Below are positions 20,464 to 45,596 of a stretch of 64,000 nucleotides of DNA, one piece after another. The position numbers and the translations under genes were made by a program. The stretch is from contig NZ_CP090949.1 of NCBI RefSeq assembly GCF_023823125.1, positions 3,310,001 to 3,374,000 of the forward strand. Reading direction: 5' to 3'. Under the pieces are notes generated by a model. It did not search any database. It was not told where the DNA came from and worked only from the letters and a program-made list of their open reading frames with translations. This stretch comes from Erythrobacter aurantius. GTDB taxonomy: Bacteria; Pseudomonadota; Alphaproteobacteria; Sphingomonadales; Sphingomonadaceae. Position 1 is the stretch's first letter, and every line of letters begins with the position of its first letter.

Positions 20464-20522
20464 GCATCGGCAAGTAGGCGCGCAGCAAGTCGCGAGCAAG
20501 ACAACAGTTGTCAGGAAAAAGC

Positions 20523-20573
20523 TGGATGCCCCGTGAGGATTCGAACCTCAATTGACGGAGTCAGAGTCCGTAG
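20523..20573. repeat. Left attachment-site repeat (tRNA-Gln 3' fragment)
   Basis: This 51-bp stretch is identical to 45523-45573 and holds the tRNA-Gln CCA end, acceptor 3' strand, T-arm and 3' half of the anticodon arm. The sequence then diverges (agaggg here, tcttacc in the true tRNA), so no functional tRNA can form here. It is the displaced original 3' end after integration. Confidence 0.92.
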
Positions 20574-23219: not shown

Positions 23220-23220
23220 A

Positions 23221-23814
23221 TTATCCCGCTTCGGCCAAAAGACGCTCTGCAAGCTCAACCACATCAAAGCCCGCGACATGGGACATTGCCTTCACGAGCC
23301 TTACGAACAGCACTCCAACGTCGATGCGAACAGCGGAAAAAGGCAGGTCCGTGGGTTGCTGATCACCGATGCAATCGGAGGCGATCCAAGTAGCCACTCG
23401 AACGCCGAGATCGCGAGGAGTCGAAAGGAGCCGGTGCATGCAACACCACGCCGTGGCCGTCCTCCCGACAGGCCATTCTCCTTCATCCACCGCCACCCTC
23501 AGTTCGTCCAGTGATACATGGTGATGGGCCAGGAACCCGAAACACTCCCTCACTACACCATCGGTGTCCTCAACAGCCGAGACTGCGTAATCAGGCGACA
23601 GGCCAGCATCGATTAGCGCAAGCGCGATCGTCACGTCAGCGAGCTGTTCGAAGTCGAACTTGGCGACTTTGCCACGCCCGGTCGCCAACCCACGCGGACA
23701 CCCCTTTTTGCGCAGATTCTCCAATCGCGCACGTAGCGCGAGCTTATCAGCGTCAGGCACGTTGAAGACATGCGCGGCGATTTTTTCGACTTCTCGTGTG
23801 GAAAGCTGGATCAT
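23221..23814 (-). CDS. Putative HTH (MerR-like) regulator upstream of integrase
   Basis: 197 residues, not recognised with certainty. Residues ~45-80 (RGLATGRGKVAKFDFEQL, then LALIDAGLSPDYAV) resemble a winged MerR-type DNA-binding segment. The C-terminal ~90 residues have no clear domain. It is the first gene of an operon with int and is divergent from the excisionase-like gene; the shared control region carries two inverted repeats. A role in controlling integration is inferred from position only. Confidence 0.6.
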   Translation of the reverse strand: MIQLSTREVEKIAAHVFNVPDADKLALRARLENLRKKGCPRGLATGRGKVAKFDFEQLADVTIALALIDAGLSPDYAVSAVEDTDGVVRECFGFLAHHHVSLDELRVAVDEGEWPVGRTATAWCCMHRLLSTPRDLGVRVATWIASDCIGDQQPTDLPFSAVRIDVGVLFVRLVKAMSHVAGFDVVELAERLLAEAG

Positions 23815-28593: not shown

Positions 28594-29477
28594 CGCCCGG
28601 CGCCAAGCGGGAAGCCGTCGCCTATGCCCGGGAGCATCACGGGGTGAGCGAGCGTCGGGCGTGTGCACTGGTTGGTGTGAGCCGCAGGGTAATCCGTTAC
28701 GAGCCTACAAGGCCAGATGACGGGGCGCTGCGGCAACGGCTGCGCGAGCTGGCGGCGGAACGCCGCCGGTTCGGCTATCGCCGCCTGGGCTACCTTCTGG
28801 CGCGGGAAGGCATCAGGCCCAACCACAAGAAGCTGCTGCGCATCTACCGGGAGGAGGGGCTGCGCGTGCGTCGCCGTGGCGGCCGGAAAAGGGCCTTGGG
28901 CACGCGCAGGCCGATGGTGCTGCCGGACGGCCCGAACCAGCGTTGGTCGCTCGACTTCGTCTCCGACAGCCTGATCTGCGGTCGGCGCTTCCGTATCCTG
29001 TGCGTGGTCGATGACTACACGCGCGAGTGCCTGGCGCTGGTGGCCGATACGTCGCTGTCGGGTGCTCGGGTAGCGCGGGAACTGACCAGCCTTATCGGCA
29101 TCCGGGGAAAGCCGCATACGGTGGTCAGCGACAATGGCACCGAACTGACCTCGTCGGCCATCCTGCGCTGGTCGCAGGAGCGCAGGGTCGAGTGGCACTA
29201 CATCGCACCGGGAAAGCCAATGCAGAACGGCTTCGTGGAGAGCTTCAATGGCCGCCTGCGCGACGAATGCCTCAACGAGACGCTGTTCACCTCGCTGGCC
29301 CATGCCCGGTTCGTGCTGGCCGCCTGGCGACACGATTACAACACGGTCAGGCCACACTCGAAACTGGGCGGGAAGACCCCCGCCGAGATCGCCGGCCAAC
29401 GTGTCTGGGGGCATGCCCCCAGACACGTTGCCATCCCATCAAACAACCATCATGAAGGAGCCAGACTCTACCTCTGA
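28587..29477 (+). CDS. IS3-family transposase OrfB (DDE integrase domain)
   Basis: 296 residues. HTH_21 region ([18 protein letters not shown]) then a retroviral-integrase-type rve domain with the DDE residues in [17 protein letters not shown] and [13 protein letters not shown]. It lies in the -1 frame relative to OrfA and overlaps it by 7 bp, so the active transposase is likely the frameshift product. No internal stop. Confidence 0.95.
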
Positions 29478-30039: not shown

Positions 30040-30843
30040 TCACTTTAAGGGCACACAATCATTTAACTGCAAATCAAGTAGTTCTTCCCGCCGCGCCGGA
30101 GACAGAGTGTTTCCATAGACAGCTTCGATTTCCGAATAAACGCTACAGATCTGTTCAGCATCCACGTCATCAAGGGCGCGGAGTGCGCGTGCAAGCGCGA
30201 AGAGATTATTTGCACCAAAATTCCCGGAAGCTCCTGACTGAAAGAGTTCGAGAAAGATTGACGCGGCCTGCCCAGCCTGACCCTGTCCGAGATAAGAAAG
30301 CCCTAGGTAATAGCGGGCCTCGGCGACTCGTGTGTCTTCCGAATTATTGGCAATGAAGGTGCTCAGTGCGAGTTCTGCACTTATCCAATCCTGTGCTTCA
30401 ACAAACCCCATCGCCTGCTCATAACGATCGACGGGAAGATTAGCATCAAACTGCGTCACAACCTCTGTTGTCACCGAGGGCGCGATTGTCTGGCTCACTT
30501 CAAATGCATCAGCCGATCGCATTGTAAGTTCTTCAAGCCGGAGCTCTGCGTCTGCCCGGAAACGCTCGAGTTCGTTACTCAGTTGAGATATTGTACGCGC
30601 ATTTTCCTCTCCCAAGGCTACCATTTGCACAATCAGCCGTTCGAGTGCAGCGATACGGTCATTGAGGCGTAGCAGTTCATTACCGAGTGCCAGCTCAGGG
30701 TTCCCTCCCTTTTCCATAACGGCGACCGGATCTTGAGGCCTTACATTGGTCTGAAAGGTGTCTTGAGCAGCTAGCGGTTGCGACAAAAGCGCGGCTGCAC
30801 CAAATGCGAACCAAAGCCTCGCAACAATGAATCTATATTCCAT
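30040..30843 (-). CDS. cpoB: CpoB/YbgF-like Tol-Pal periplasmic TPR protein
   Basis: 267 residues. Signal peptide MEYRFIVARLWFAFGAAALL...LAAQ, a coiled-coil stretch at ~52-115 (LLRLNDRIAALERLIVQMVA), then TPR-like repeats ~140-260 (ISAELALSTFIANNSEDTRV, ARYYLGLSYLGQGQAGQAAS). CpoB links Tol-Pal action to peptidoglycan synthesis at division. It is the last gene of the island tol cluster, as in core tol operons. The island location suggests it is a second copy. Confidence 0.82.
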   Translation of the reverse strand: MEYRFIVARLWFAFGAAALLSQPLAAQDTFQTNVRPQDPVAVMEKGGNPELALGNELLRLNDRIAALERLIVQMVALGEENARTISQLSNELERFRADAELRLEELTMRSADAFEVSQTIAPSVTTEVVTQFDANLPVDRYEQAMGFVEAQDWISAELALSTFIANNSEDTRVAEARYYLGLSYLGQGQAGQAASIFLELFQSGASGNFGANNLFALARALRALDDVDAEQICSVYSEIEAVYGNTLSPARREELLDLQLNDCVPLK

Positions 30844-30845
30844 AA

Positions 30846-31502
30846 TCAGAACCGGAAACCAAGCCCAAGCCCGACGATCACCGAGCTAAGGCGCCGCGCT
30901 TCGGTGGCACGTATTTCGCGTTCAATACGGACTTCAGTCTTGCGACTGGTGTACTTCACATCAAAATTCAGGAATAATTGGTCGCCCAGAGCAATATCTG
31001 AACCAGCTTGAGCGACTGGTGCAAAACCTCCGATCAACTTAGAATTATATGATACGAAAGGATCCGGCGCAGAATTTTTTAATTCCAGATCCACGGCTTC
31101 ACTGTAAAGATTGAGGTGATTAATACCTAGGCCAATGTATGGCCTAATTTTTTGACTGGCAGGTGTGAAATGATACTGCAGGCTAACAGTAGAGACAAGG
31201 AGATCCGCTGAAACCAGCCTTCGACCAGTAGAGTCTTTGATTTGATAACCCGCCCCGCCCATGGAGACTTCCGCCGCGAGGTGATCGGTCAAGAACATCG
31301 TAATCGCCGCTTCAGCACCTGTCGTGTTCTCAATGTCTGCATCTACCGGCACATTTTCGCCGGGTAGATTTATCGAGAAGCCATCCAATCGCTGATGGTA
31401 AGAACCACGCGCTTTTATAAGAATATCCCCTGCATCTGCTTTGGCAGGCGCGCTACCCAATATAGCAAGAGCACCAAGACCTAAGAAGAAAACTCTTTGC
31501 AT
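30846..31502 (-). CDS. OmpW-family outer-membrane beta-barrel protein
   Basis: 218 residues with a signal peptide ending near APAKA|DA and alternating beta-strand pattern; IRPYIGLGINHLNLY and a terminal GLGLGFRF (C-terminal Phe, typical of outer-membrane barrels). OmpW proteins form small eight-stranded barrels that pass hydrophobic compounds. It lies between pal and cpoB, an unusual insertion into a tol operon, with gaps of 6 and 2 bp, so it is co-transcribed. Confidence 0.82.
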   Translation of the reverse strand: MQRVFFLGLGALAILGSAPAKADAGDILIKARGSYHQRLDGFSINLPGENVPVDADIENTTGAEAAITMFLTDHLAAEVSMGGAGYQIKDSTGRRLVSADLLVSTVSLQYHFTPASQKIRPYIGLGINHLNLYSEAVDLELKNSAPDPFVSYNSKLIGGFAPVAQAGSDIALGDQLFLNFDVKYTSRKTEVRIEREIRATEARRLSSVIVGLGLGFRF

Positions 31503-31508
31503 CGAAAT

Positions 31509-32090
31509 CTACCTTTCATTGTTCTGCTTTATTTCGGAAAATATAGTCTCACCACGTCGATTGCGCCGCTGACTTGCTTCATCGCGCACAGTGGTAATCG
31601 GCATCTGTTTGCCTAAAGATGTAACTGAAAGTTGGTCGGGCGATACGCCGCGTGCGACAAGGTAGCTACGCATCGCGGTTGCCCGCATTTCCCCTATAGC
31701 GAATTGACGGGCCCGCCCTCCGAAGAGGTCGGCATGGCCTCGCAAAGTAGCGGTGACAGCAGGATGAAGAAGGAGCCATTCCGCTTGGCGGTCAAGGATC
31801 ATTCGTGCCTGCGCGTCGAGTTGGGCGCTCCCTCTCTGAAAATAAATGATCTTGGATCCTGCAAAGGGCTGGAATAGTGGTGGTTCGGTCTCAGCAGAAG
31901 GCTCGGACACCGCGACTGTTGTAATCGGCAAAACTTTTGGAGGCATAGAAAAGATAGGAGCCGCAGGAAGTGACTGAGTAGGACGCTGGCAGCCCACCAG
32001 CGTTAAGCAGGCACTTAGCGCCAGCAGCCCTGCACCCCGTAATGTTGGCATACACAAACGCGGGTGACTTCCACTTTCGGTTTTTTTCAT
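31509..32090 (-). CDS. pal: Pal-like OmpA-domain lipoprotein
   Basis: 193 residues. Lipobox LTLVGC gives a lipidated Cys at ~34. The C-terminal OmpA-like peptidoglycan-binding domain has IIYFQRGSAQLDAQARMILD, VTATLRGHADLFGG and SLGKQMPITTVRDEASQRRN-type ends. Pal ties the outer membrane to peptidoglycan and is moved by Tol. Its start overlaps the tolB stop (ATGA). Seven A's follow the ATG region on the coding strand. The domain is more divergent than housekeeping Pal. Confidence 0.85.
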   Translation of the reverse strand: MKKTESGSHPRLCMPTLRGAGLLALSACLTLVGCQRPTQSLPAAPIFSMPPKVLPITTVAVSEPSAETEPPLFQPFAGSKIIYFQRGSAQLDAQARMILDRQAEWLLLHPAVTATLRGHADLFGGRARQFAIGEMRATAMRSYLVARGVSPDQLSVTSLGKQMPITTVRDEASQRRNRRGETIFSEIKQNNER

Positions 32091-33400
32091 GGTAGTATCT
32101 CGGACCAGTCAGGCTCAGACGAAGGACTGGTAAGTGGCACAGAGGTCAGCAGGCGACCATTCACATCGACGACGAACAGTGCGGGGGCTCCACCTTCAGA
32201 GGGGCTGCGTTGGAAAGCTATAGCTCGCCCACTTGGCGCCCAAACTGGATCCTCGTCGTACGGCCCTTCGCTAATCAACCGACTCCCGCTTCCGTCAGGT
32301 GCCATCACACCAATCCGAGCGGATCCTGCCGTGTAACTCACAAATACGATTAATCGGCCGTCCGGACTCCATGCCGGCGATCCATGAGCAGACCCGAAAC
32401 TGATGCGGTTTTGACCTCGGCCATCCCTCTGCATCACATATAATTGCGGCTGACCCGACCGGTCAGATTCAAACACGACTTTTGTTCCGTCCGGTGAATA
32501 CGACGGGCTGGTATCGATCCCGGTTGTGGCAGTAAGACGAGTTGTTTCACCGGTTGCCAACTCATACTCATAGATATCTGTAGACCCAGCTTGTGACAGT
32601 GCCAACAGGAGGCTTCGACCGTCAGGCGAAAATCTCGGCGCAGATGGGAGCCCAGCTGGAAGCCTCAGAGTTTGCTTTGCTCCAGTCCGAAGGTCGATCT
32701 GGGTTAGTTCTGGGAGCTCTGGGTTAAAGCGCAGAAAAAGAAGCGAGCGATGATCGGGGCTGAGTCGAGGCATCGAGACCAGTTCGCGTTCATCAGATAA
32801 GATAGTTTTGTTCGCTCCGTCAAAGTCTATGCCGATTACGCGGCGGGGCGATGCTGGATCATCAGGACCCGATGAAATCAAAGCGAAGCGAGTATCGAAA
32901 TGCCCGCTATACCCTGTTGCGTGAGCTACCACTAAATCGGCGCACTTATGCGCTAAACGCCGCCATTGGTGCGGAGGCACGCGGAATTCCCGCGCAACCT
33001 CACGCTCGCCGCTGAATACATCATGATAAGCACACTCATATAGCAGTGAACCATCTCCGGCACGCCGCGCCCGACCCACTACTAACGCCTGCGTCCCGCG
33101 GATCGAAGCTTGACGCAAAAGCGTCCGATCGTCGCCCCCTCGGATGGAGGGCAATGCCAGAATTTGAAAAAAGGGATCAGTCGCAAGATCGGCTCTCAAT
33201 ATGCGGGCTAGTGCAATGCCTGCGTCGACGGCACCCTGTTGCTCGACGACCACATTGCTAGTGGTGTCTGGCACGGATAGCGTAAGAGCACTGATTTCTC
33301 CCTCGGTGATGTCTACAAAAAGCCGCTCCTGCGCCACCGCTGATGGCGAACTGCAAAGGACTATCGCGAAGAACGAAATAACGGATGCTAGGGGTCTCAT
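32087..33400 (-). CDS. tolB: Tol-Pal system protein TolB
   Basis: 437 residues. Signal peptide ending SPSAVAQ, N-terminal alpha/beta domain (~25-165) and a six-bladed beta-propeller of WD40-like PD40 repeats (PSYSPDGTKVVFESDRSGQP, SPAWSPDGRLIVFVS, DPVWAPSGRAIAFQRSPSEG). TolB is periplasmic and binds Pal. It overlaps tolA and pal by four bases each, so the four genes are translationally chained. Confidence 0.92.
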   Translation of the reverse strand: MRPLASVISFFAIVLCSSPSAVAQERLFVDITEGEISALTLSVPDTTSNVVVEQQGAVDAGIALARILRADLATDPFFQILALPSIRGGDDRTLLRQASIRGTQALVVGRARRAGDGSLLYECAYHDVFSGEREVAREFRVPPHQWRRLAHKCADLVVAHATGYSGHFDTRFALISSGPDDPASPRRVIGIDFDGANKTILSDERELVSMPRLSPDHRSLLFLRFNPELPELTQIDLRTGAKQTLRLPAGLPSAPRFSPDGRSLLLALSQAGSTDIYEYELATGETTRLTATTGIDTSPSYSPDGTKVVFESDRSGQPQLYVMQRDGRGQNRISFGSAHGSPAWSPDGRLIVFVSYTAGSARIGVMAPDGSGSRLISEGPYDEDPVWAPSGRAIAFQRSPSEGGAPALFVVDVNGRLLTSVPLTSPSSEPDWSEILP

Positions 33401-34296
33401 CGCAGGTTCCTTGGATCAAATTCCACTTCGACTTCGGCCCATGCGTCATAGAGCTCGGGTGGAAGGTCGAGTGGAGCACACAGCATGATGGCACGGCGGC
33501 CGCTATTGATTAGCAACGTTACGTACGACGCATTCTCATCATTCTGTCCGACGACTGCGCTCTGAATTGGTTGACCGACAATTCCTCCTTGCCGATCAAG
33601 ACGAACACGTAGCCGTACAATTGAAGCCGCACCGCTATTGCTTGGAGGAGGATTCCAGCAGGGCATGACCTGTTCTCGAACTTTCTGTGCAAGATCAACC
33701 TTTTGGCGTACTGTTAAACTTGGCAACCCGATGGGTGTCGCCCGGCCAATGGCCGCGCCAAGAGCCGCAGAATTCAAACGACTTGGGCGTTCTTGCGAGG
33801 CAGTTGAAATACTGCTTGCACGAGAAAGTGCAGCCGCATCTAGCCGTGATTGGAAGCGCTCAGACCTTTGAGCAGGCACCTGATCGACAGATGAAGTTGG
33901 CACCTCAATCGATGCTCCAGTATCCGCCGTTAACTCTAGTTCTAGACCCGGTAAAGAAACCGGATCAGAGAGAAACCTGAAATTAGACCCATCTGCTTTT
34001 GACTGGCTTGACGTAGCAGTCTCAGCAGTTTGTTGACCCTTAAACACGGAATCCGGAATTGCCACGATATCACGCGGCTCACCCATCGTTTTCTGCGGCG
34101 ACTTAGAAGCCAATGGTAGATTACCCGCGAGTATTGGACTAGTCGAGGGCATGGCGTATTCTATATCGATAACTTGGAATTCCATGCCAGATTCCGGTGG
34201 CTCTATTTCCTCAAAATTAAACGTAATCTGAGCCAACATCGCGACGAGCCCGAAATGCAGACACACTGAAGCCAAATTGGAAAAGCGATCAATCAC
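33397..34296 (-). CDS. tolA: TolA-like protein
   Basis: 299 residues. An N-terminal transmembrane helix (LASVCLHFGLVAMLAQITF), a low-complexity middle (~60-190) much shorter than the long Ala-rich helix of enterobacterial TolA, and a C-terminal TolA/TonB-like domain (VREQVMPCWNPPPSNSGA, VRLRVRLDRQGGIVGQPIQ). It spans the periplasm to couple TolQR to TolB-Pal. The GTG start overlaps the tolR stop. Assignment rests on position as well as the C-terminal motif. Confidence 0.82.
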   Translation of the reverse strand: MIDRFSNLASVCLHFGLVAMLAQITFNFEEIEPPESGMEFQVIDIEYAMPSTSPILAGNLPLASKSPQKTMGEPRDIVAIPDSVFKGQQTAETATSSQSKADGSNFRFLSDPVSLPGLELELTADTGASIEVPTSSVDQVPAQRSERFQSRLDAAALSRASSISTASQERPSRLNSAALGAAIGRATPIGLPSLTVRQKVDLAQKVREQVMPCWNPPPSNSGAASIVRLRVRLDRQGGIVGQPIQSAVVGQNDENASYVTLLINSGRRAIMLCAPLDLPPELYDAWAEVEVEFDPRNLR

Positions 34297-34757
34297 TGCA
34301 ATTCGCCGGCTGGCCTAGTCAATGATGGGTTAGAAAGAAACGCGACCTTCGTGAAACCAGACTTTGAAATTTGTGCTACGACTTGTATTACTGAGCCGTA
34401 GGGCAAATCTCGGTCGGCTCGTACCATAACTTGCTGTTCATGAGGTGCTGGCGAATTCAATGAAAGCTGCAGCATAACATCCGCGAAATCCTCCGAAGCA
34501 ATAGGCGTCTTGCCGAGATATACTGTCTGTTGCGAATCGATAGTCACCTCAATTGGCTCCACCGATGCAACAATTCTACTCTCTTCAGAATCTGGTAGTT
34601 CAACATCAGTTCCAGTGAGAACCATTTGTCCTGTGACAATAAAGATTATCAGCAGCACAAGCATCACGTCTACCATTGGTGTCACATTTATTTCCGAAAT
34701 AAGCTCTGGACGCCTCCGGCTCCAAAGGCTCATTTCGGCTCCACCACTACCAATCAC
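34293..34757 (-). CDS. tolR: TolR/ExbD-family protein
   Basis: 154 residues. One transmembrane helix just after the conserved ELISEINVTPMVDVMLVLLI (with the essential Asp of the family), then a periplasmic domain ending in the IQVVAQISKSGFTKVAF type of ExbD/TolR. With TolQ it uses the proton gradient. Start GTG at 34757 has AAAGGA upstream and follows the tolQ stop directly; the in-frame ATG at 34733, with GGAG upstream, is also possible. Confidence 0.92.
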   Translation of the reverse strand: MIGSGGAEMSLWSRRRPELISEINVTPMVDVMLVLLIIFIVTGQMVLTGTDVELPDSEESRIVASVEPIEVTIDSQQTVYLGKTPIASEDFADVMLQLSLNSPAPHEQQVMVRADRDLPYGSVIQVVAQISKSGFTKVAFLSNPSLTRPAGELQ

Positions 34758-35471
34758 TTACGCTATCCTTTCTTTTTGGTCTGGGCGGCGAATGATGGCA
34801 TAATGACGAGAAATGGCGACATCGACGCGAGCTACAATTGCGCGCCACTCATGTTCGGTCCTCGCGAGTGCCTGCAAAATCCGGTTGTAGCCCATTGACG
34901 CCGGTATCGCGCAAAACAGCCCAATCGCAGTCGCGAACAACGCTTCGGCCATTCCCGGAGCGACCGTGGTTAGGGAAGTATCCTGTGTCTGCCCAATCGC
35001 AATGAAGCTGTTCATGATGCCCCATACCGTGCCAAATAGGCCAACAAAGGGTGCTGAATTACCAATTGTAGCAAGCCAGCCAGAATTATTCGACAACCGA
35101 ACATATTGCCGTTCCAACGCGAGCTCGGACACCGTAACTAGGCGCTGACGCATTTCGGTGTAACTACGGCTAGTATTCTCGTTGGACCATTTCCACTCGC
35201 GAGCAAGAGCATGCAAGATAGTATGAACCTTGCCATTGCCGTTATTGGCAAGCTCTCGAAGCTCATCGAATTTCTTTACTTCATCGAGAGCTTTCTTGAC
35301 CTTCAGAATTTTCTGACGCTCTATGACTATTGCAATAGTTCGCGAAATTATAACGCCCCATGAAAATATTGAAGCAACAAGTAATAGGGACATTACAGAC
35401 TGGACGACCCAATCCGCACCAAGGAAGACCTCTAAGGGCGTTAGTTGTTCTGAATTACTTCCCATTAGCAT
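34758..35471 (-). CDS. tolQ: TolQ/ExbB-family proton channel protein
   Basis: 237 residues with three transmembrane helices (first at ~22-45, then around the GWLATIGNSAPFVGLFGTVW signature, and AEALFATAIGLFCAIPASM). This is the MotA/TolQ/ExbB channel subunit. Length and the following tolR, tolA, tolB and pal identify it as TolQ rather than ExbB. Start at ATG 35471 (or 35465). First gene of the tol set proper. Confidence 0.92.
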   Translation of the reverse strand: MLMGSNSEQLTPLEVFLGADWVVQSVMSLLLVASIFSWGVIISRTIAIVIERQKILKVKKALDEVKKFDELRELANNGNGKVHTILHALAREWKWSNENTSRSYTEMRQRLVTVSELALERQYVRLSNNSGWLATIGNSAPFVGLFGTVWGIMNSFIAIGQTQDTSLTTVAPGMAEALFATAIGLFCAIPASMGYNRILQALARTEHEWRAIVARVDVAISRHYAIIRRPDQKERIA

Positions 35472-35492
35472 ATTTGATTCTCTTGCACTCGT

Positions 35493-36116
35493 TTAAGGAT
35501 TGGCGCGATGAGGACGATCTAACACCAAAGCATGAATAAGCGTCGCAAGATCTGGCAAACCCGAAGCTACGATCTTTGAACTCAGCTGAAACTCAGTAAC
35601 CGCAGTTACCATTGCCTCACTCCACTCGCCATTGACTGGCCCGGAGTACAATCCATCTTCAATTAACTTCGACTGGAGCGCTGCAAGTGCACTTTGCCTG
35701 ATTTGAAGTGATCGATTTTTATTCTCGACCACAGTTATTGGGCTCACGTTGACTTGGTGGATGGGAGCGAGAGCGCTTATCACCGAACTTGCAGCCTGCT
35801 CAATTGTTACCGTAGTTTGATCGCGACAGACTGCCTGAACGGCTTCAAGAAAAACCTGTCCATCAGGATAAGGAAGGACGTCGAAACGTTTTTCTTCAAC
35901 CCGGTTTCGCGCTGTCATGTAGCCCATCAGCCAAGAAGCATATAGGCGAGAATTTTCGTCGGTTGCCTTACGATTGAGATATTCTTGGCATGTATTTGCC
36001 CCCAAACCTCTCACAGCAAACAGACCACTCGCGTCTGCAGCGTAGGCCGGTGAGTTCAGCAGAATTGCGCCTGCCGCTGTGGCGACCAGATGGACCAATT
36101 TGAATGACTCCATCAT
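35493..36116 (-). CDS. Secreted protein with C-terminal peptidoglycan-binding-like domain
   Basis: 207 residues. Signal peptide ends NSPAYA|AD. The middle (~25-105) has two Cys and a pattern (GANTCQEYLNRKATDENSRL, ASWLMGYMTARN) like small periplasmic HdeA/Rap1a-type domains. The C-terminus (~150-200: ALQSKLIEDGLYSGPVNGEW, SEAMVTAVTEFQ) matches PG_binding_1. ATG at 36116 follows AAGGGAG. It precedes tolQ by 21 bp and is probably the first gene of the island tol operon. Function unknown; likely envelope anchoring. Confidence 0.75.
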   Translation of the reverse strand: MMESFKLVHLVATAAGAILLNSPAYAADASGLFAVRGLGANTCQEYLNRKATDENSRLYASWLMGYMTARNRVEEKRFDVLPYPDGQVFLEAVQAVCRDQTTVTIEQAASSVISALAPIHQVNVSPITVVENKNRSLQIRQSALAALQSKLIEDGLYSGPVNGEWSEAMVTAVTEFQLSSKIVASGLPDLATLIHALVLDRPHRANP

Positions 36117-36237
36117 GACAAGACTCCCTTTCCGCGGAAGCGAAGGCCTGAACAGAGATTCAATGCTCTCATCTAGACCTTCGCCCCGCCTCTGGTCATC
36201 CTCTGCCGCAACAGGCGTGGGTGACCACCAAAACATG

Positions 36238-36274
36238 CTCCGCGGGCTACCTTGCGGCGACTTAGCCCGCGGAG
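36238..36274 (-). terminator. Hairpin terminator after hfaD-like gene
   Basis: CTCCGCGGGCTA (36238-36249) and TAGCCCGCGGAG (36263-36274) form a perfect 12-bp stem with a 13-nt loop, 8 bp beyond the giant gene's stop. On the minus strand it is followed within a few bases by TTTT. It separates the hfa-like operon from the tol operon. Confidence 0.75.
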
Positions 36275-36281
36275 TTCTTCA

Positions 36282-39200
36282 TTAATTGGCTCCGATGACT
36301 GAAATAGAGCTATTGCCGATGGCGGTAGCCGAGGCAGCGTTGCCGCTGTTCTGCATGCTGCTCCCGGCAACGGCGCCGTTCGAACTCATGCTGTAGGTCA
36401 CGGTGGTCGCAACCGCGCTTACTGCGCCGGTGTTGGTCTGCTGGTTACCCAGAGCCACATTCGGCATGCCGGTCACCAGCGAACTCAACATGAGCCTGTT
36501 TTCTGCGCTGTTACCTACCGCAAAGGCAGTCGTGCTGTTGTTGCTGTTGCTGACACTTGCGTTGAGCACGCCGGCAACGCTGCCGCCGCTTGTCGCGTTG
36601 AGTGCGACCGAGGTCCCGCCGGTGGCGTTGGCGGTTACCGCACCGCTGTTCGCCTGGTCGTTTAGCAGCGCCGCATTTGCCGTAGCGACGTTCGTCGATC
36701 CGTTGATCGTCGCCGCACCAGCTGCCGCGGTGTAGCCGGCGCCAGCGGTGTAGTTCAGCGTGTTGGAAGCGCTGTTGCCGCGGGCGAGAGCCAGAGTGGA
36801 GTTGCCTTCGATCAACACCGAGCTGCCATCAAGTGATTCGAGCGCAGTCTCATCCTCAGTCGTGCCGGTTACGGCGAGACGGACAGTGCTGTTCGCATTG
36901 GCCGAAGTTGTTGCTTGGCTGGCTTGCTGATTGATCAGCGATGCCGTCGAACCAAGGTTAGCGTCGGCACCGACCGAAACGGTGTTGGCCGCTCGGTTGG
37001 AGGTCGACTCCGACCGCGTGGCGTTGCTGGACATCGAAATGCTGCCATTAACGACTCCCGTCGTCGTGACATCAGTATTGCCTATATTGTAGATGTCCGT
37101 GGTGGCAGTGGTCGTAAGCGTACCGGATGCGTTCTGCCCGTTGATCAGGGCAAAGGAACCAGTTGACTGCGCTGCGCCCGCCAATGCCACATCGGATGTG
37201 GCAATAGCTGGAGCGGTAGACGTCGAGTTGGTTGACGAAGCCGTCAAAGAGTTGGTCGCATTGTTGATCACACCGAGCGCGCTGTTTCCGTTTTGGTCGA
37301 CATTCACCGAGGATCCGCTTGAGACAACGTTCGAAACGACCTCCATGTCGCTTACAGACGAGATGGCGGCACTTGACCCGTCTTGGGAGTTAGTAAGCAC
37401 ACCTGAAGTGGCCGTCCCAGCAAGGTCGGTTCCGCGAACCGTAAGGTTGTTGGTAACTGTGTTGCCAATTGCTTCGCCATAAGCACTGTTGGCTGATACA
37501 CTCAGGCTTGCGTCAGTAATGGCCGTGTCAAGAGCACCATCGATCCCGAAGGTCGTGAACACTTCTGTGGTACTGCTGCTACCAGCAACCAAGATCTGGC
37601 TCGAAGCCAAAGCGGCATCAGCTCTGGCATCGGCTTCAGGGTCTCCCGTTGAAGCGGTGAGAACCTCTCCAGCGCCGACCGCAGTAACGCCATCGAATGC
37701 GTTGGCAGCGACAGTCACGCTATTTCCGGCCGAGTTGCCGATTGCCGAACCCTGCACCGCGTTGCTTTCGACAGCTAAAGTGCTGGCCGTGATCGCGCCT
37801 TCAACGTCGATCAAAACTCCTCCATTGTTGACGGCACCGCTCGTACCGCTCACCGGCAAGGTGACTGCGCCGGTACCAGGTGTGGTGTACGAGAACGCAA
37901 AGGTGACAGGATCATATGTGAAGTCGGTCGCAGAACCGTATTCCGCCAAGAATGCGGTTACTTGGTCGGGTGTCAGGCCGCTCAGACTTCCGCTTGCCGT
38001 GCCAGTGGTAATTGTTGCTGGGACAGTAAACGGAGCGACCCCGCCAGAGCCTGCGAACCCAATCAGAGCTGACACATCCTGACTGCTAGTTTGCAGGTTT
38101 GAAGCGCCGGCGGTGACCTGATTCAGAGTGGTGCCATCGACACTCACCGTGTTGGTAGACCGATTGCTCGCAGCAAGAGCCTGCAACAGGTTGTTGTTTG
38201 CCTCGACTGACGAGTTGGTCACGGTGCTGTTCAAGTCGTTTACGACCGAAGCACTATCGCCGAAGGTACCGCCCGTGGATTCACGGAGGCTGGCAGTTAC
38301 ATTACCGGTCCCCGCAACCTGCGTGTTTACAACGCCAAATTGTGCAGCAACAGTATTCGTATCAGTGTCGAGATAAGCATTAGCTTGAGCGCTGAGATTG
38401 CTTCCCGATAGCGATGTTCCAGATACGGTCAATGTATTGGTGGCGCGCGACGAATCTGCGGATGCCAGGACCTGATTGGCGGAGCTTACGACGGAGCCTC
38501 GCAGGATCGCGCCGTCAATTTCTGTTTCGACTGAATTGCCGCCTTCATCGGTATTCCCGTCTGCTGTGGCGAGAATGTCAGCACCCGATACGTTCTGAAG
38601 GTTCGCAACAGCAGCATCAGCCATTCCGTCTGTAGTGGTCAAATTTCCGATGCTTATGTTTGCTTGGTTTGTCGCAACGGTTCCCTGAGCTTGCGCTAGA
38701 AGAGTGTTGTTGGTGACTGCCGTGTTGGAGTCGGTGAGTGATCCGACGATGTCCATGCGGAAGGCATCAGTATCATCGGGATCAGCGGATGCTATGACGT
38801 CGGCGAGCACCTGCTGGACATTGACGACGCCATAAGCGGCGGTGGCATCGGCATCGAGAGATTGCGGAGCGCTAGTCGCCGCAGTGCCGTTCAATCCGAG
38901 TGCGACCACCTGGGCGTCGACCGAAAGTGTGTTCGCCGCAACGGTACCGCGTGCAACCGCCGACTGGCTGTTGCCCGAGATTTCGCTCGAACCCGAGATC
39001 AGGCTGGCAGCATAGTCTACGTCAATCGAACCGGTCTGGGTCGCGGTTACTGTCGACGTCGCATCATTGACCTGCAGGTTCGAAATCCCTGCAGCCGAAC
39101 CGACATCGACCCCCGTCAGCGACAGGCTGTTGCCGGCATCGCTACCGGTTGCGAACGCCTGCTGGGTGTTGCGCGTCACGGCAACGCTGGTGTTGGTGGC

Positions 39201-40955
39201 CGTGCCGTTGAGGTTGTCGCCGGTGAAGATGTCGATATCCGAGATCGTGTTACGAGCGGTAACGGTCGATCCGGTGTTGAACATCGCACTGGCAATGACA
39301 ACCGCTCCATCTGCAGCAACCGAGTCGCCGTCAGCGGAGGGGATGAGGTCAGCTGAAAGGGTAGCCGACGTATCAACTGCCGCATTTAGAGCAGTCGCTT
39401 CCAGTTCAATCGCCTGAAGCGCACGGTTGCCAGTCGCGCTGGCGGCCAGAACGTTCGAGTCGACGGTGATCGCGCTGTTGACGAAAGTGGCGCTAGCGCC
39501 ACCTTGGCCCACATTGACCTCAACATCCGAATCATCGGAATCGGCAAGAACGACAACAGTGTCGAGCTCCTGGCGGGAAGCCAGAACCGCTGAGGCATCA
39601 AACGTCGCTGATGAAGCGCCGCTGGAAATACCGGCGGTGAGATCGTTACCGTTAGCAGCCGTGGTCAAACGGTTGGACGAGACGTCGATCGAGCTAGTTT
39701 CGAGACTCGCCACATCCACGTCGACATCGACACTCAGGCGGGTCTCAAGCTCACCAGTTTGCACGAGCTGCGTATTGACACCCACGAGACCGCCGCTGGC
39801 GGTAACGTCAGAAAGAACTGTCAGCGGGTCGCCTGGCTCTCCTGCCTCACCTAGTTCGTCAATTTGTGCCGACGCAATGTTATCAGCGGCAGTATTGTAA
39901 GAAAGGCTGTCGGCCAGCGAAATCTGCGTGGTCGCAGTGTTGCCGGTCGCATTCGCCGAGGCTGTATTCGACGCAGCCGACAGGCTGCTGTTGAGGAAAG
40001 AGGTCGTGAAACCTTCCGTTTGGATCGAAGCGCGGAACTCTCCGGTGGTGACCGCCGCCGGGTCTGACGTGTTAGCGTCGAAACGCTGCGCGTTGCTGAT
40101 TGCAGCCGTGGTCGAGGTGCTGCCGTCATCCGCCGCAAGCGCAATCGAAGCATCGCGAGCGTTCGCTGTGAAGCTCGAAGTGATGGCATTGCCGTCGAGC
40201 GTGGTAGTACCGGTGACATTATCATCAGCGGTAGTGTTGATGGTCAGGAAGGTATCGGCGTTGCTGGTAGTCGCCGACGAATCAGCAGCAGGGACAGCGA
40301 CCTGAACCGACGAGACCAGAAGCGAGCCCGACAGATCGGCAACGTTCGCAGCCGAACCCGACACGTCGGTCGTGACTGCTGCGTTGGTGGTTGCAAGGTT
40401 GGTGTAGTCGACCGGCTCCGAGCCCGTGATCGTGGCTGCGTAGGTATCGCTACCCTCATTAACGACAACAACCGAAGACGTCACGTTGTCAAGGACATTG
40501 ACCGAACCCGTGGCGAAATCAGTAGCGGCAACGCCGATTTGCGCGTCCGAAGTGGTCGCATCAACTTGACCAGTGTTTGTAGAAACTGCCGACAACGCAA
40601 TACCATCATCCGGCAGAGTAGTGCTGCCAATGGTCGCCAGCGAAGCGGTTACGCCGTTACGGTTAGCGATAGCCGTGGCGTCCGCCGTGTTCTCGTTGTT
40701 GTCGAGAACGCTATTAGTGGTGTCGCCAATAATGGTGGTGATCGCATCAAAATTCGGCGTCGTCGCAGTCACGGTTTCGCTATTCGATTGTGGCGATGTA
40801 TCTCCCCCTGTCACATGGCCCTGCAAAATAGAATCGAGAACCCCGTTAGTAACAACCGTCTGCGCAGATGAAGGTACAGAAGCGGTCGCCACTGCAAGGA
40901 TCGCTATGCTTGCACCAGCCGACAGCTGCGTGCGCATTTTTTTTGAGTCAAACAT
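36282..40955 (-). CDS. hfaD: Giant repetitive secreted protein, HfaD-like surface adhesin/fibre subunit
   Basis: 1557 residues. Signal peptide ends near SVPSSAQ (residue ~32). The rest is rich in Ala, Ser, Thr, Asn, Val and Gly, with no Cys or Trp that I can find. About 15-18 repeats follow a loose pattern N-x3-A-x-A-x-GN-x-A-x-N-x-L-x-V, e.g. SNTASANATGNTATTQISLA and SNAVQGSAIGNSAGNSVTVA, roughly every 90-100 residues, the last at the C-terminus (GNAASATAIGNSSISVIGAN). This looks like a beta-solenoid or amyloid-type fibre. It follows an HfaB (CsgG)-like gene, as hfaD does in Caulobacter. A run of eight A spans codons 4-7. Confidence 0.75.
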   Translation of the reverse strand: MFDSKKMRTQLSAGASIAILAVATASVPSSAQTVVTNGVLDSILQGHVTGGDTSPQSNSETVTATTPNFDAITTIIGDTTNSVLDNNENTADATAIANRNGVTASLATIGSTTLPDDGIALSAVSTNTGQVDATTSDAQIGVAATDFATGSVNVLDNVTSSVVVVNEGSDTYAATITGSEPVDYTNLATTNAAVTTDVSGSAANVADLSGSLLVSSVQVAVPAADSSATTSNADTFLTINTTADDNVTGTTTLDGNAITSSFTANARDASIALAADDGSTSTTAAISNAQRFDANTSDPAAVTTGEFRASIQTEGFTTSFLNSSLSAASNTASANATGNTATTQISLADSLSYNTAADNIASAQIDELGEAGEPGDPLTVLSDVTASGGLVGVNTQLVQTGELETRLSVDVDVDVASLETSSIDVSSNRLTTAANGNDLTAGISSGASSATFDASAVLASRQELDTVVVLADSDDSDVEVNVGQGGASATFVNSAITVDSNVLAASATGNRALQAIELEATALNAAVDTSATLSADLIPSADGDSVAADGAVVIASAMFNTGSTVTARNTISDIDIFTGDNLNGTATNTSVAVTRNTQQAFATGSDAGNSLSLTGVDVGSAAGISNLQVNDATSTVTATQTGSIDVDYAASLISGSSEISGNSQSAVARGTVAANTLSVDAQVVALGLNGTAATSAPQSLDADATAAYGVVNVQQVLADVIASADPDDTDAFRMDIVGSLTDSNTAVTNNTLLAQAQGTVATNQANISIGNLTTTDGMADAAVANLQNVSGADILATADGNTDEGGNSVETEIDGAILRGSVVSSANQVLASADSSRATNTLTVSGTSLSGSNLSAQANAYLDTDTNTVAAQFGVVNTQVAGTGNVTASLRESTGGTFGDSASVVNDLNSTVTNSSVEANNNLLQALAASNRSTNTVSVDGTTLNQVTAGASNLQTSSQDVSALIGFAGSGGVAPFTVPATITTGTASGSLSGLTPDQVTAFLAEYGSATDFTYDPVTFAFSYTTPGTGAVTLPVSGTSGAVNNGGVLIDVEGAITASTLAVESNAVQGSAIGNSAGNSVTVAANAFDGVTAVGAGEVLTASTGDPEADARADAALASSQILVAGSSSTTEVFTTFGIDGALDTAITDASLSVSANSAYGEAIGNTVTNNLTVRGTDLAGTATSGVLTNSQDGSSAAISSVSDMEVVSNVVSSGSSVNVDQNGNSALGVINNATNSLTASSTNSTSTAPAIATSDVALAGAAQSTGSFALINGQNASGTLTTTATTDIYNIGNTDVTTTGVVNGSISMSSNATRSESTSNRAANTVSVGADANLGSTASLINQQASQATTSANANSTVRLAVTGTTEDETALESLDGSSVLIEGNSTLALARGNSASNTLNYTAGAGYTAAAGAATINGSTNVATANAALLNDQANSGAVTANATGGTSVALNATSGGSVAGVLNASVSNSNNSTTAFAVGNSAENRLMLSSLVTGMPNVALGNQQTNTGAVSAVATTVTYSMSSNGAVAGSSMQNSGNAASATAIGNSSISVIGAN

Positions 40956-41004
40956 TATTAAAATTCCCCTTGTAAAAACTTTTTCGCAACTAATTATCGT
41001 TACT

Positions 41005-42381
41005 TCATTCTATTTTTCGTATTTCAACGCGTGCGAGTTCTTGGAACCCGGGCCCGTCGCGGTAAATAGCGGTGTCAACCGAAGACGGGCGCCAAGTGAC
41101 CCTGAACTCAGATGAGCTAATGCCTCGGTTTGTCAGCGCGGACACAAGGTTAGCAATGCGCTGATCCAGCAAAGCGTCGCGCCTTGCAGGATCCCAAGTC
41201 TCGGTATCCCTAGCAACGAGAAGTAAAGAGACGGTTCTTTCCGATGCGAGACGCACTGCCATATCAAGGACCGGCTGGGCACTCGACATCAAGTTTGCAT
41301 CTCCAAATTCAAAACCAATCTGGAGCAGGCTGGTAGCTGCTGCCGCGCCGGCACCCACCGCCTCATTGAGCGAACGAACGGGAGCGACTGACGGGACAGT
41401 TGGCGCAAGAGAAAGTTGTTCTGATCCAGCATTTGCAGATTTATCGCTTCGGTCTGCTGGAAGCGATCGCCCACGCAACTCGTCTGCAGCCTCACTTGGT
41501 ATCGTATCCAATTTCTGCGACATACAGATCGATGGATCGAGATCCTTTACCGACGCGACCAGCCGTAAAACACCTTCTTCGAGCGCGGTGCGGATCCCAA
41601 GCTGCAAAGGCTCCTGACCCTTGGCGCCGATATTGATATCGAATAGCTCGGTGCCGAAAAAGCGAAAAACTCCAGCCCCAATTTCATACCCAGTAAACTG
41701 CTTTGTAAGGCTGACGGTTTTGAGAACCAGAAGCGAGCGCGTGTCGACGATCCGAAGGTCTATTGCCACACTTTGAGTGAATACCCTCGCCTCTGGACCC
41801 AAATTATTAATGGTTACCTGCGCACCGCCTGAGCGTATGTTATAATTCACTTCAGTGATACCGCCGACGATGTAATAGTCAGACTGAGCAATAGTGCCGC
41901 CGAAATATGGCAACCACGGCACCCTTTCGCCGTTGACCTCGTGAACCAGACCGTTCCCTAGCTGGCGCCGATCTGTGTAACCCAGTTCGCGTTCAGCAAT
42001 GGTTGGATCGAAGCGCTCTGCGATCCGAAGCGGTCCGCCGATCTTGCCGAGAGCGGAAAAGACCATGAGCGATCCACCCTGAGTGATCGCATTACCCTCG
42101 TTTATGGAGTACTTACCGGTGTAGTCACGGACTTCGCCGACTCCAATTACTGTTGGCTTTCCGTTTGCCGCGACCAGTTGGTCACCAAAACAGGCAAGCG
42201 CCGCCTCCATCGGTGACCTATTGTCGCGGACTGGCGCGCCAATTACGATAGGCACTTCGCGTGGGGCGACACGCTGACTATCAATCCCGCCTCCGACAGA
42301 AGTGCACCCCATCAGCAATATCGACAAAACGAGGGTCGAGCTTCTCACAACGAAGCGTCTGGAATACGGATAAAAAGTCAT
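41005..42381 (-). CDS. hfaB: HfaB-like CsgG-family outer-membrane secretion lipoprotein
   Basis: 458 residues. Lipobox ILLMGC places the lipidated Cys at 26. Residues ~35-270 are the CsgG/HfaB domain (IGVGEVRDYTGKYSINEGNA, DYYIVGGITEVNYNIRSGGA, VLKTVSLTKQFTGYEIGAGV), which forms an outer-membrane channel for curli or holdfast-anchor subunits. Beyond a linker, residues ~345-458 resemble a divergent OmpA-like domain (FEFGDANLMSSAQPVLDMAV, DALLDQRIANLVSALTNRGI). The ATG at 42381 fits the signal peptide. It lies 5 bp after hfaA. Confidence 0.85.
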   Translation of the reverse strand: MTFYPYSRRFVVRSSTLVLSILLMGCTSVGGGIDSQRVAPREVPIVIGAPVRDNRSPMEAALACFGDQLVAANGKPTVIGVGEVRDYTGKYSINEGNAITQGGSLMVFSALGKIGGPLRIAERFDPTIAERELGYTDRRQLGNGLVHEVNGERVPWLPYFGGTIAQSDYYIVGGITEVNYNIRSGGAQVTINNLGPEARVFTQSVAIDLRIVDTRSLLVLKTVSLTKQFTGYEIGAGVFRFFGTELFDINIGAKGQEPLQLGIRTALEEGVLRLVASVKDLDPSICMSQKLDTIPSEAADELRGRSLPADRSDKSANAGSEQLSLAPTVPSVAPVRSLNEAVGAGAAAATSLLQIGFEFGDANLMSSAQPVLDMAVRLASERTVSLLLVARDTETWDPARRDALLDQRIANLVSALTNRGISSSEFRVTWRPSSVDTAIYRDGPGFQELARVEIRKIE

Positions 42382-42386
42382 ACCTT

Positions 42387-42923
42387 CTATCCGGCTGCCG
42401 GCACATATTGACAAGCAGTCGAGCCGTTTACAGTCGCTGACTGGTTACCTGAGTTATTCTGATCGGTGTTAAGCGCTTGGAAATTGTCACCCCTGACAGA
42501 TGCCGACATGGAACCAGACGCATCAGCCTCGATCTCGCCACTATTGCCCTGTGTCGACGAGTTGGTACTGCCATCCCCGGGGCCACCATTGTCGTAAGTC
42601 GTGTCGCTTAGGTTGCCTTTTGCATCCGAGCTGTGACCACTCGTACTTGGGGAGTTTGCCACCGCATTCGACGCGGCGTCATTGCCGGTCGCGGTAGAAT
42701 TAACGGAACAATTGTACTGATCGTTAATATAGGTGTTGTAGATCGGGGCTGAGTAAAAACCATTTATTCCCCTCTGACGCACTTCCTCAAGGTACATCAG
42801 AGCGGATCGCTCAGCGGGCGTAAGAAATTGCCAAGCGATGTTTTCACCTACATTGTTGGCCATAGCCGAATGAGCGACGCCGCCCACTAGAAGCATGGCC
42901 ATAAAGAGAGATTTCTTGAACAT
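42387..42923 (-). CDS. hfaA: HfaA-like small secreted fibre/anchor subunit
   Basis: 178 residues. Signal peptide ends HSAMA|NN. The mature protein has an N-terminal conserved part (GENIAWQFLTPAERSALMYL, SAPIYNTYINDQYNC) and a low-complexity Ser/Asn/Gly-rich remainder with stretches such as NSTATGNDAASNAVANS that echo the HfaD-like repeat. Two Cys may pair. In Caulobacter HfaA is a secreted holdfast anchor protein. ATG at 42923 lies 10 bp after the EAL gene stop. Confidence 0.75.
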   Translation of the reverse strand: MFKKSLFMAMLLVGGVAHSAMANNVGENIAWQFLTPAERSALMYLEEVRQRGINGFYSAPIYNTYINDQYNCSVNSTATGNDAASNAVANSPSTSGHSSDAKGNLSDTTYDNGGPGDGSTNSSTQGNSGEIEADASGSMSASVRGDNFQALNTDQNNSGNQSATVNGSTACQYVPAAG

Positions 42924-42933
42924 TAGCGATAAC

Positions 42934-44262
42934 TCACTTTGAATTGCGTGGTGGCGTGACTGGCACTTCGGCGAGCTTACGGCGGGCAGACCGAGGGGCC
43001 TGGTGGCCGCTTGCCCAACACCTAGAAAGGCGCGGGGGACCACACCACGCCCCCTTCATTAAGTCAGCTCCAGCCTCCACCGCAGTAGTGGCGGCAAGGG
43101 CGTCATCCACGCCGTCGACTAGCACTTGCGCTCGCAATGCCCGACCAAGCCCGATTAAGTGAGGCAGAGCCGACCCCAAGCGGGCTGGCATCCCCGCCGA
43201 AATAAAGTGACGGTCTATTGAAACGATATCGGGCTCAAATACCGAAGCGTCACGCAACGAGGTTTCACCGAGTCCGAATTGACCGATAGAAATACGGCAT
43301 CCGGCCCGCCTAAGCCCAGCCAATGTTTCACCCACGCCTAACACCGAGGCTCCGCCTAATGGACCTCGTAATTCAAGAATTAGATCACGTGCGACGCCAC
43401 CTTTTCGCAGAAGTTTTGTGAGCAGCTGCTCCCAAAAGGCCGTATCCGCAAAGCTTTCAACTGCAACCGTTACCATCAGTGCGACTGCCCCCGGAGAAGC
43501 AAGCAATTCGTCCACCGCACGCGAGGCAACATAACGGTCGAAAAGACGAACCAAGCCCAGCCGCTCTGCCGCCGCAATTACGCGCCCCCCAACTTCGAGT
43601 TGCCCATTTGCATCTATTGTTGCAAACTTGCCCTCGACAATTGCCGATGTGCCGGGCAATGCGGCGAACCTAACCGGCTGCCAACAGACCTCAACGTCGA
43701 TAGGCGACCCCATCTTACTACGGTAACCACCCATTGCCGCCAACGCTGGCGAAACAACAGCCATATCCATCGCATGATCGCTTCTCGATTGCTCAGAAAC
43801 CGTTGGGCTCAGCTCGTCGGCAGCATTTACAGCTATCGCGCCATTGCGAGGACGCTCGCGAACCAGCGCGGATCCTACCAAAACCAAATGCACAACAACG
43901 CCGTTAATCGTCAGAGGCCGAAGCATGAGATCCACAATTAACGACTGCAGCCACTCACGTCGGTCGTCAGACACCGCTGGCAAGTTGGCCGCCACAGGGT
44001 CGCGAACATACACTTCTAAACCACAATCGAATCTTGGCTCGATCAGCGCCATGCCACACAATGTTTCTGAAACTCGATCCATCAGGACGGCAAGAGCAGA
44101 CCGACCAAAACCCGGCCCAAAAGACACCTCTAACTGGACGAAATTTGCAATCCTGAGCTCAAAACAAAAATGCCCCGAGTCACCGCCTAAATCGCGCCGC
44201 AAGACAGGGTGCGGAACAACATTATCCACAAAATCCCCAGTCCACCCTACCATACCCGTCAA
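42934..44262 (-). CDS. Degenerate EAL-domain protein
   Basis: About 442 residues. The C-terminal EAL fold (~190-420) is clear: CWQPVRF for the usual YQP, VEGKFA in place of EALxR, QFGLGETSL for DDFGTGYSSL, DIVSIDRHFI for the lobe-6 strand, VDGVDD for AEGVE and GADLMKGAWCGPP at the end. The key Glu/Asp metal ligands are changed, so c-di-GMP hydrolysis is unlikely. The N-terminal ~180 residues are unassigned. The start is uncertain: TTG 44262 has GGGAGG upstream; an open frame extends to 44376. It is the first gene of the hfa-like operon. Confidence 0.7.
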   Translation of the reverse strand: MTGMVGWTGDFVDNVVPHPVLRRDLGGDSGHFCFELRIANFVQLEVSFGPGFGRSALAVLMDRVSETLCGMALIEPRFDCGLEVYVRDPVAANLPAVSDDRREWLQSLIVDLMLRPLTINGVVVHLVLVGSALVRERPRNGAIAVNAADELSPTVSEQSRSDHAMDMAVVSPALAAMGGYRSKMGSPIDVEVCWQPVRFAALPGTSAIVEGKFATIDANGQLEVGGRVIAAAERLGLVRLFDRYVASRAVDELLASPGAVALMVTVAVESFADTAFWEQLLTKLLRKGGVARDLILELRGPLGGASVLGVGETLAGLRRAGCRISIGQFGLGETSLRDASVFEPDIVSIDRHFISAGMPARLGSALPHLIGLGRALRAQVLVDGVDDALAATTAVEAGADLMKGAWCGPPRLSRCWASGHQAPRSARRKLAEVPVTPPRNSK

Positions 44263-44540
44263 AACTACTGCCCTCCCGAAGGCAATTGCCGCTCCTTTCC
44301 GACCCCTTTGGAGTCGATCAAGGAGAAACCCCTTGAGACGCGTTGATGGCACCCCGGCGGTTCGTGGACACGGCAAATTGCTGCCACTTACGGCTCAAAC
44401 TACATCCATAGTGGTGGGAACCTCTGTCAAACAGGACTTACGTGGTTTCGTGTCGAATGTCCGACACACAGATAAGTCCGGAATTTCAGGTTGTTGCAGG
44501 ATTTGGCCCTACGTCAAATTTTCTGAATGGAGACACCATA

Positions 44541-45522: not shown

Positions 45523-45573
45523 TGGATGCCCCGTGAGGATTCGAACCTCAATTGACGGAGTCAGAGTCCGTAG
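45523..45573. repeat. Right attachment-site repeat within tRNA-Gln
   Basis: Identical over 51 bp to 20523-20573. It covers the tRNA-Gln 3' part from the CCA end to the anticodon arm. The bases beyond 45573 continue the true tRNA, so the element supplied the 3' end that keeps the tRNA whole. Confidence 0.92.
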
Positions 45574-45596
45574 TCTTACCATTAGACGACGGGGCA
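45523..45596 (-). tRNA. tRNA-Gln (anticodon CTG)
   Basis: The minus strand reads TGCCCCG...CGGGGCA with a 7-bp acceptor stem, an encoded CCA at the 3' end (45523-45525), the T-arm GAGG-TTCGAAT-CCTC and the anticodon arm ACGGA-CTCTGAC-TCCGT. The anticodon CTG reads CAG (Gln). It is the integration site of the island and remains intact. Its 5' half and promoter lie outside the island, to the right. Confidence 0.93.

Follow-up and report, generated by a model that had tools for sequence, protein, structure and literature searches.

A mobile surface-fibre gene run in Erythrobacter aurantius joined to a second, diverged Tol-Pal set

The gene run and the element that carries it

The stretch of Erythrobacter aurantius DNA analysed here (the window, 64,000 nucleotides, bases 3310001-3374000 of a 3.42-Mb single-contig genome) carries on its minus strand, between 30040 and 44376, twelve same-strand genes in which an HfaABD-like, CsgG-family surface-fibre system runs into a complete and ordered TolQ-TolR-TolA-TolB-Pal set with CpoB nearby. 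Such a one-strand run had been proposed from the bare sequence in an earlier note (the original prediction), and Pfam searches for all twelve proteins, NCBIfam searches for eleven of them (all but EAL) and gene position agree on its presence. Read from 44376 down to 30040, the order is as follows.

42934..44376, minus: EAL-domain protein (longest frame, TTG start; Pfam EAL 88.3 bits)
42387..43043, minus: HfaA-like small secreted protein (from the frame, with the probable start some 120 bp inside it)
41005..42414, minus: CsgG/HfaB-like putative outer-membrane pore lipoprotein with a predicted C-terminal Pal/OmpA-like domain (Pfam, NCBIfam, structure model)
36282..40955, minus: giant HfaD-like surface protein of 1557 amino acids (from the frame; last 500 residues predicted all-beta, solenoid-like)
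35493..36236, minus: PG_binding_1 domain protein (Pfam 30.7 bits)
34758..35471, minus: TolQ/ExbB-like proton channel (Pfam MotA_ExbB 105.1 bits)
34293..34757, minus: TolR/ExbD-like protein, NVTPxVDVML motif and its Asp kept (Pfam ExbD 95.0 bits)
33397..34296, minus: TolA-like protein (gene position and alignment with core TolA)
32087..33400, minus: TolB paralogue (Pfam PD40 116.8 bits, TIGR02800 314.5 bits)
31509..32090, minus: Pal-like OmpA-domain lipoprotein (Pfam OmpA 67.1 bits; lipobox LVGC, by eye)
30846..31502, minus: OmpW-like outer-membrane barrel (PF03922, 76.8 bits)
30040..30843, minus: CpoB/YbgF-like periplasmic tetratricopeptide-repeat protein (TIGR02795 52.4 bits; equivalog cut-off 90.1)

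The gaps from HfaB to CpoB are only -4 to +49 bp, and the twelve genes probably form a single transcript, an operon. Its 5' end had been put at 44262, which is one possible start of the EAL gene, while the longest frame reaches 44376 with a TTG codon.

Tol-Pal is regarded as a core machine of cell division and of the envelope. The core operon for it (Pal, TolB, TolA, TolR, TolQ) lies in the same genome, about 100 kb from the island, so the island set is a second Tol-Pal and not the sole one, a check that the original prediction had named. It is also diverged. The window TolB is 36-39% identical to the core TolBs compared and its TIGR02800 score lies below the equivalog cut-off of 343.15, as do those of TolR (TIGR02801, 109.6 bits against 127.3) and Pal (TIGR02802, 81.8 bits against 125.35), while TolQ scores about equally as ExbB (185.5) and as TolQ (182.8; equivalog cut-off 221). 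Together with the YbgF score, these values mark the proteins as paralogues rather than equivalogs. The best match of the island Pal in the PDB is Pal itself (2hqs, 66.6 bits). The TolA-like protein, for which neither Pfam nor NCBIfam gave a family within the limits set, has one N-terminal membrane segment (by eye) and a TolA-like C-terminal domain.

The pore gene is recognised by the Pfam CsgG family (PF03783, 60.6 bits, cut-off 20.8), and its closest named model is HfaB (NCBIfam NF037935, 200.9 bits, below the equivalog cut-off of 300) rather than CsgG (43.5 bits). The predicted fold is matched best by CsgG, and the C-terminal domain aligns with the Pal profile (hhalign 95.4%, E 1.9e-8, 79 columns), with the key Arg in register by eye; PF00691 OmpA gave no match on the C-terminus, where the search of the protein reported only CsgG at E 0.1. 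Both the pore fold and the Pal-like domain, the latter not mentioned in the original prediction, are predictions. The HfaA and HfaD models (NF037934 and NF037936) found no match in the genome at E 0.001, whereas both matched the control, Caulobacter vibrioides, and at the limits used neither neighbour fell into any Pfam or NCBIfam family, save a chance-level RclB match of the HfaA-like protein (E 0.033). The HfaABD label of the original prediction therefore fits the pore, a divergent HfaB/CsgG relative, and fails for its two neighbours, which do not satisfy the family models. No CsgE or CsgF Pfam family appeared among the twelve proteins.

The whole run sits on a mobile element, a 25,000-bp segment enclosed by 51-bp direct repeats of the 3' part of a tRNA-Gln gene.

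20523..20573, minus: left 51-bp direct repeat (tRNA-Gln 3' part), island end (repeat comparison)
22053..23279, minus: tyrosine integrase of the island (PF00589, 75.3 bits)
45523..45596, minus: tRNA-Gln(ctg), attachment site (45523-45573 is the right repeat copy)

The repeat copies (window 20523-45573) are spaced by exactly 25,000 bp. In 15 of 29 same-genus loci (one of them a partial match at a locus end) the site is empty, the left-flank gene (19591-20499) lying no more than about 1.5 kb from Ppx/GppA (45761), and the tRNA island of the original prediction is borne out. The long HfaB is rare in the genus, being present only in this genome among 114 (1021.8 bits; next 53.3).

Recurrence, origin and transfer of the joined run

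The neighbourhood link that was to be looked for in other genomes exists, as the run recurs in six further Sphingomonadales. Relatives found with a profile of the pore family numbered 392, and the analysis went on with the best 80 named loci. Of these 80, 50 were taken to a search with the TolB model, which covered 49 genomes (all but that of L091); many are drafts or metagenome-assembled genomes (MAGs), so some absences may be gaps, and one genome (G159) showed no full-length TolB at all. A second full-length TolB was found in six pore genomes: Novosphingobium hassiacum (DSM 14552), Novosphingobium sp. B1, a Novosphingobium MAG, Sphingosinicella MCMED-G19, Sphingomonadales M0605 and Sphingobium indicum BiD32. 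All six belong to Sphingomonadales and all keep their core TolB.

In four of the six the tol block lies on the pore's contig in identical order and strand. The assemblies of N. hassiacum and S. indicum are broken within the giant gene, so that one contig ends after HfaB while another starts with a piece of an HfaD-like gene and continues into the tol block. The cassette is probably continuous across the break; the PG_binding_1 and TolQ genes were not seen in the split assembly of S. indicum. The genes from TolR to CpoB, including the OmpW-like barrel and the CpoB/YbgF-like homologue, are present in all six other cassettes and TolQ in five, the sixth being cut by a contig end. Where the proteins could be compared, the TolQ membrane motifs are kept in six of six island copies and the Asp of the NVTP/NITP-x-VD motif, the proton-carrying residue of TolR, in seven of seven. 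The EAL motif residues are likewise kept, by eye, in the other six cassettes. The fibre and tol genes are even interleaved: in Sphingosinicella tolQ and tolR are separated by two further giant HfaD-like genes of the same strand, the first of which has a signal-like start of its own, about 77 bp past tolQ, and in S. indicum an HfaD-like gene directly precedes tolR.

In four of the six carriers the contig also holds a further hfa locus that lacks tol genes and belongs to another HfaB clade (L122 with L088, L041 with L081, L042 with L079 and L043 with L074). The distance from pore to pore is about 27-37 kb in three of them; in N. hassiacum the locus and the tol block are about 17 kb apart.

The trees point to one origin. 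The HfaB proteins of the seven carriers form one clade (SH-aLRT 93, quick tree, node not starred), as do island TolB and island Pal (both 100/100), and island TolB branches beside the core TolB of the same order (98/94); the TolQ tree had five island rows, S. indicum and Sphingosinicella being missing, and in the 34-row tree the core TolB of the window genome groups with Croceicoccus estronivorus. The flanking Ppx/GppA protein has its closest named relatives in Erythrobacter, at about 80% identity, and the two results together place the genome most likely in the Erythrobacter group of Sphingomonadales. Co-divergence, measured as the rank correlation of pairwise identities over the seven genomes with its permutation share, gives rho of 0.83-0.87 (share 0.0075-0.022) between HfaB and island TolB, Pal, TolR, OmpW and CpoB, with TolB at 0.87. 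In contrast, HfaB follows neither core TolB (rho -0.03, share 0.41) nor core Pal (0.31, share 0.22), and island and core TolB are unrelated in this respect (-0.11). Without S. indicum the values for HfaB are 0.88 with island TolB and 0.14 with core TolB. Divergences that agree between HfaB and island TolB but not with core TolB are what a cassette moving as one piece should produce, and there are thus signs that it was inherited or transferred as one. The clearest case is the pair Sphingosinicella and S. indicum, where the cassettes are 88-98% identical and the core TolBs only 59%, which is a clear transfer; over nine genes of this pair the ratio of nonsynonymous to synonymous substitution rates (dN/dS) is 0.04-0.24, showing purifying selection in one genome pair.

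Could the tol block be a chance neighbour, fixed in one mobile lineage and sharing no function with the fibre? The single apparent origin would fit, as would the setting, with the window's run on an integrase element and five others near a conjugation-type ATPase gene. That gene lies on the far side of the cassette in five of the six (Pfam-scanned in one), and none was found in the roughly 10 kb past the M0605 run. However, the run keeps its order and content from EAL to CpoB even where TolB identity has dropped to 43-47%, and its surroundings do not stay the same: within the flanks fetched, the six other runs have neighbours unlike those of the window, and outside the run only the island response regulator has a relative there (40%, Novosphingobium B1). 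Fibre genes, moreover, lie inside the tol run, and among the matches listed for 396 genomes of the order there was no island-type TolB without the pore. We therefore regard mere hitch-hiking as highly improbable. Indirect support for the link comes from public and metagenome protein clusters, where 120 listed of 1020 HfaB clusters and 71 of 78 TolB clusters (the seven lowest, near core level, omitted) had seven exact longest-contig sizes in common, one of them that of the MAG already known as a carrier.

What the second Tol-Pal may do

That the second Tol-Pal is dedicated to the fibre locus is strongly supported by its one origin, by the signs that the run was inherited whole and by the fibre genes found within the tol run, and it is very probable that Tol-Pal and the fibre work together. 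In this respect the original prediction is supported. The part of it that assigned Tol-Pal to export fares less well, since 43 of the 49 pore genomes showed no second full-length TolB and fibre export as such probably needs no Tol-Pal. What would the block be for, then? It contains the parts with which core Tol-Pal shifts and retains a lipoprotein bound to the wall, and the pore itself has a Pal-like domain, so we favour placing or anchoring. In core Tol-Pal, wall-bound Pal is mobilised by a proton-driven process and then captured where the cell divides. Our preferred interpretation, which we consider somewhat probable, is that of a mobile surface-fibre assembly unit whose dedicated, diverged Tol-Pal positions or stabilises a peptidoglycan-tethered pore; the specific mechanism of positioning or anchoring is put forward more tentatively, as a plausible guess.

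The sequence of events could be as follows. The HfaB-like protein would form a CsgG-type outer-membrane pore through which the HfaA-like and giant HfaD-like proteins may pass to the surface, and its Pal-like domain, together with the PG_binding_1 protein, may tie the pore to the cell wall. The TolQ-TolR-TolA-TolB-Pal-OmpW-CpoB block would then gather or stabilise these wall-tethered pores, or the membrane around them, at one place, which by analogy with core Tol-Pal may be the septum or the new pole, and the fibre would be shown and anchored there. The EAL protein may couple expression or activity to cyclic di-GMP.

Several observations weigh against this interpretation, besides the 43 genomes mentioned above. 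A survey with the pore profile at E 1e-60 detected the pore in 10 of the order's 396 genomes; in the class the figure was 6 of 385. Seven of the ten pore genomes of the order had no Tol-Pal partner among the best matches listed, with at most four candidates scored per genome, and on their contig numbers and coordinates two of the three positives (G332 and G404) appear to be genomes already counted (G114 and G117). The joined form turned up in a single order, with one apparent origin. The Pal-like domain is also found on the pores of tol-less relatives, so its origin is not tied to the tol block. In the island HfaB the Asp presumed to touch the wall peptide in Pal stands, by eye, one column out of register, which makes wall binding uncertain. 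The structure model of the pore has modest confidence (mean predicted local distance difference test score, pLDDT, 60.5), the EAL motif residues are degenerate or lost in the window copy, and none of the five proteins TolQ, TolR, TolB, Pal and CpoB reaches its NCBIfam equivalog cut-off. Co-divergence weakens when the window is removed (HfaB with island TolB 0.66, permutation share 0.07; core TolB -0.26), and more so without both the window and S. indicum (0.61, share 0.17; core TolB 0.02), so that the contrast with core TolB holds while the strength of the correlation rests partly on the window and on few genomes. Finally, this analysis found no evidence of targeting.

The presence of OmpW and CpoB with Tol-Pal in all seven cassettes suggests a different role, in which the block acts on the envelope and not on the fibre: pore rings and secreted proteins of some 1500 residues would stress the outer membrane, and the second Tol-Pal, CpoB and OmpW would hold membrane-wall contact there. 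Stabilisation of the outer membrane is the accepted role of core Tol-Pal (PMC12204202), and E. coli tolA and pal mutants are described as curli-defective with raised sigma-E (PMC5745457). However, each of the seven genomes has a core TolB already, a second TolB did not show up in most of the relatives that have a large HfaD-like gene, and we find envelope protection less likely, although worth keeping in mind.

The CsgG-type channel is generally taken to run without energy input. It is a bold idea, and an unlikely one in our opinion, that Tol-Pal serves here as a proton-driven motor of a CsgG-type pore, with TolB acting on the Pal-like domain so as to move, gather or open pores; we know of no CsgG-type export energised by Tol-Pal, and if true, no CsgG-class fibre system before this one would have been energised, and the cassette would be a polarity or adhesion device that spreads horizontally. 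In the still less likely form of force-assisted export, TolQRA would hand on proton-motive energy via TolB, either to the substrate or, by way of the Pal-like domain, to the pore, and would so drive or gate the export of the giant HfaD in a TonB-like use. The HfaB domain is indeed recognisably related to Pal, TolB's known partner, the HfaD genes are interleaved with tolQ and tolR, and the TolR Asp and the TolQ membrane motifs are conserved in every copy compared. But large HfaD-like genes stand beside tol-less pores too, HfaA- and HfaD-like genes being present at most pore loci of the 43 genomes without a second TolB, and a complete Pal is retained next to the Pal-like domain, so HfaB is no replacement for it.

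Under the preferred interpretation of a dedicated positioning or stabilising Tol-Pal, the pairing suggests that a cell-division machine was recruited to handle a surface fibre, and a mobile second Tol-Pal travelling with a fibre pore means that a core machine can be captured as an accessory of a surface structure. It offers a natural test of the uses of Tol-Pal force, of the hold of CsgG/HfaB pores in the envelope and of fibre placement at particular sites, and named carriers such as N. hassiacum DSM 14552 make the pairing testable.

Related systems and neighbouring loci

Searches in an open-access library brought up no paper on the pairing of Tol-Pal with a surface-fibre pore, and each of the closest known systems resembles the island only in part. 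The gene order of the holdfast anchor of Caulobacter crescentus is hfaA-hfaB-hfaD, and the island has the same succession of small secreted protein, CsgG-like lipoprotein and larger surface protein (by position only). Surface HfaA and HfaD of Caulobacter require HfaB (PMC6707917). The island differs from this anchor in the extra OmpA-like domain of its sub-cut-off HfaB, in an HfaD-like protein of 1557 residues against an HfaD model of 374 positions, and in the joined Tol-Pal, OmpW and CpoB genes. It is best described as an HfaABD-like fibre system of the CsgG family to which a diverged paralogue of Tol-Pal has been joined, and not as a member of the holdfast anchors. Curli share the CsgG-type pore, but the CsgE and CsgF families are missing from the run and the genome's own csgG-type locus is separate, at 1.25 Mb. 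Compared with core Tol-Pal-CpoB, the set and the order TolQ-TolR-TolA-TolB-Pal, then CpoB, are the same, whereas the island copy is a second, diverged and mobile one, joined to a fibre pore and with OmpW between Pal and CpoB.

HasB is a TonB-type protein, without TolB or Pal. Dedicated TonB paralogues of this type are likewise energy-coupling paralogues for one outer-membrane partner, and PorE, a CpoB-TolB-Pal fusion tied to type IX secretion, likewise uses TolB-, Pal- and CpoB-type parts with a protein export system (PMC12204202). PorE differs in being one fused lipoprotein of another phylum, encoded outside the type IX secretion system operon of P. gingivalis, and the portion available of the same source names no CsgG-type pore with it (PMC12204202).

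The separate curli-type locus with CsgG (L129:7791-13430) also has, by eye, an upstream small CsgF-like gene and three Gln/Asn-repeat proteins. Among Comamonadaceae (L046-L072, L092; Variovorax, Xenophilus) HfaB is commonly fused to OmpA and accompanied by a giant HfaD-like gene, and at least six Variovorax genomes have two such fusion loci, with no tol genes in the fetched flanks. Relatives of the PG_binding_1 protein occur in eight tol-less loci as well. Beside the operon end in the window lies an IS3-type transposase gene (28587-29477, integrase core, Pfam), to which the small frame 28327-28593 is assigned by position (span 28327-29477). The island also encodes a response regulator (window 27022-27912), and response-regulator-like genes adjoin, by eye, the hfa loci L051 and L052.

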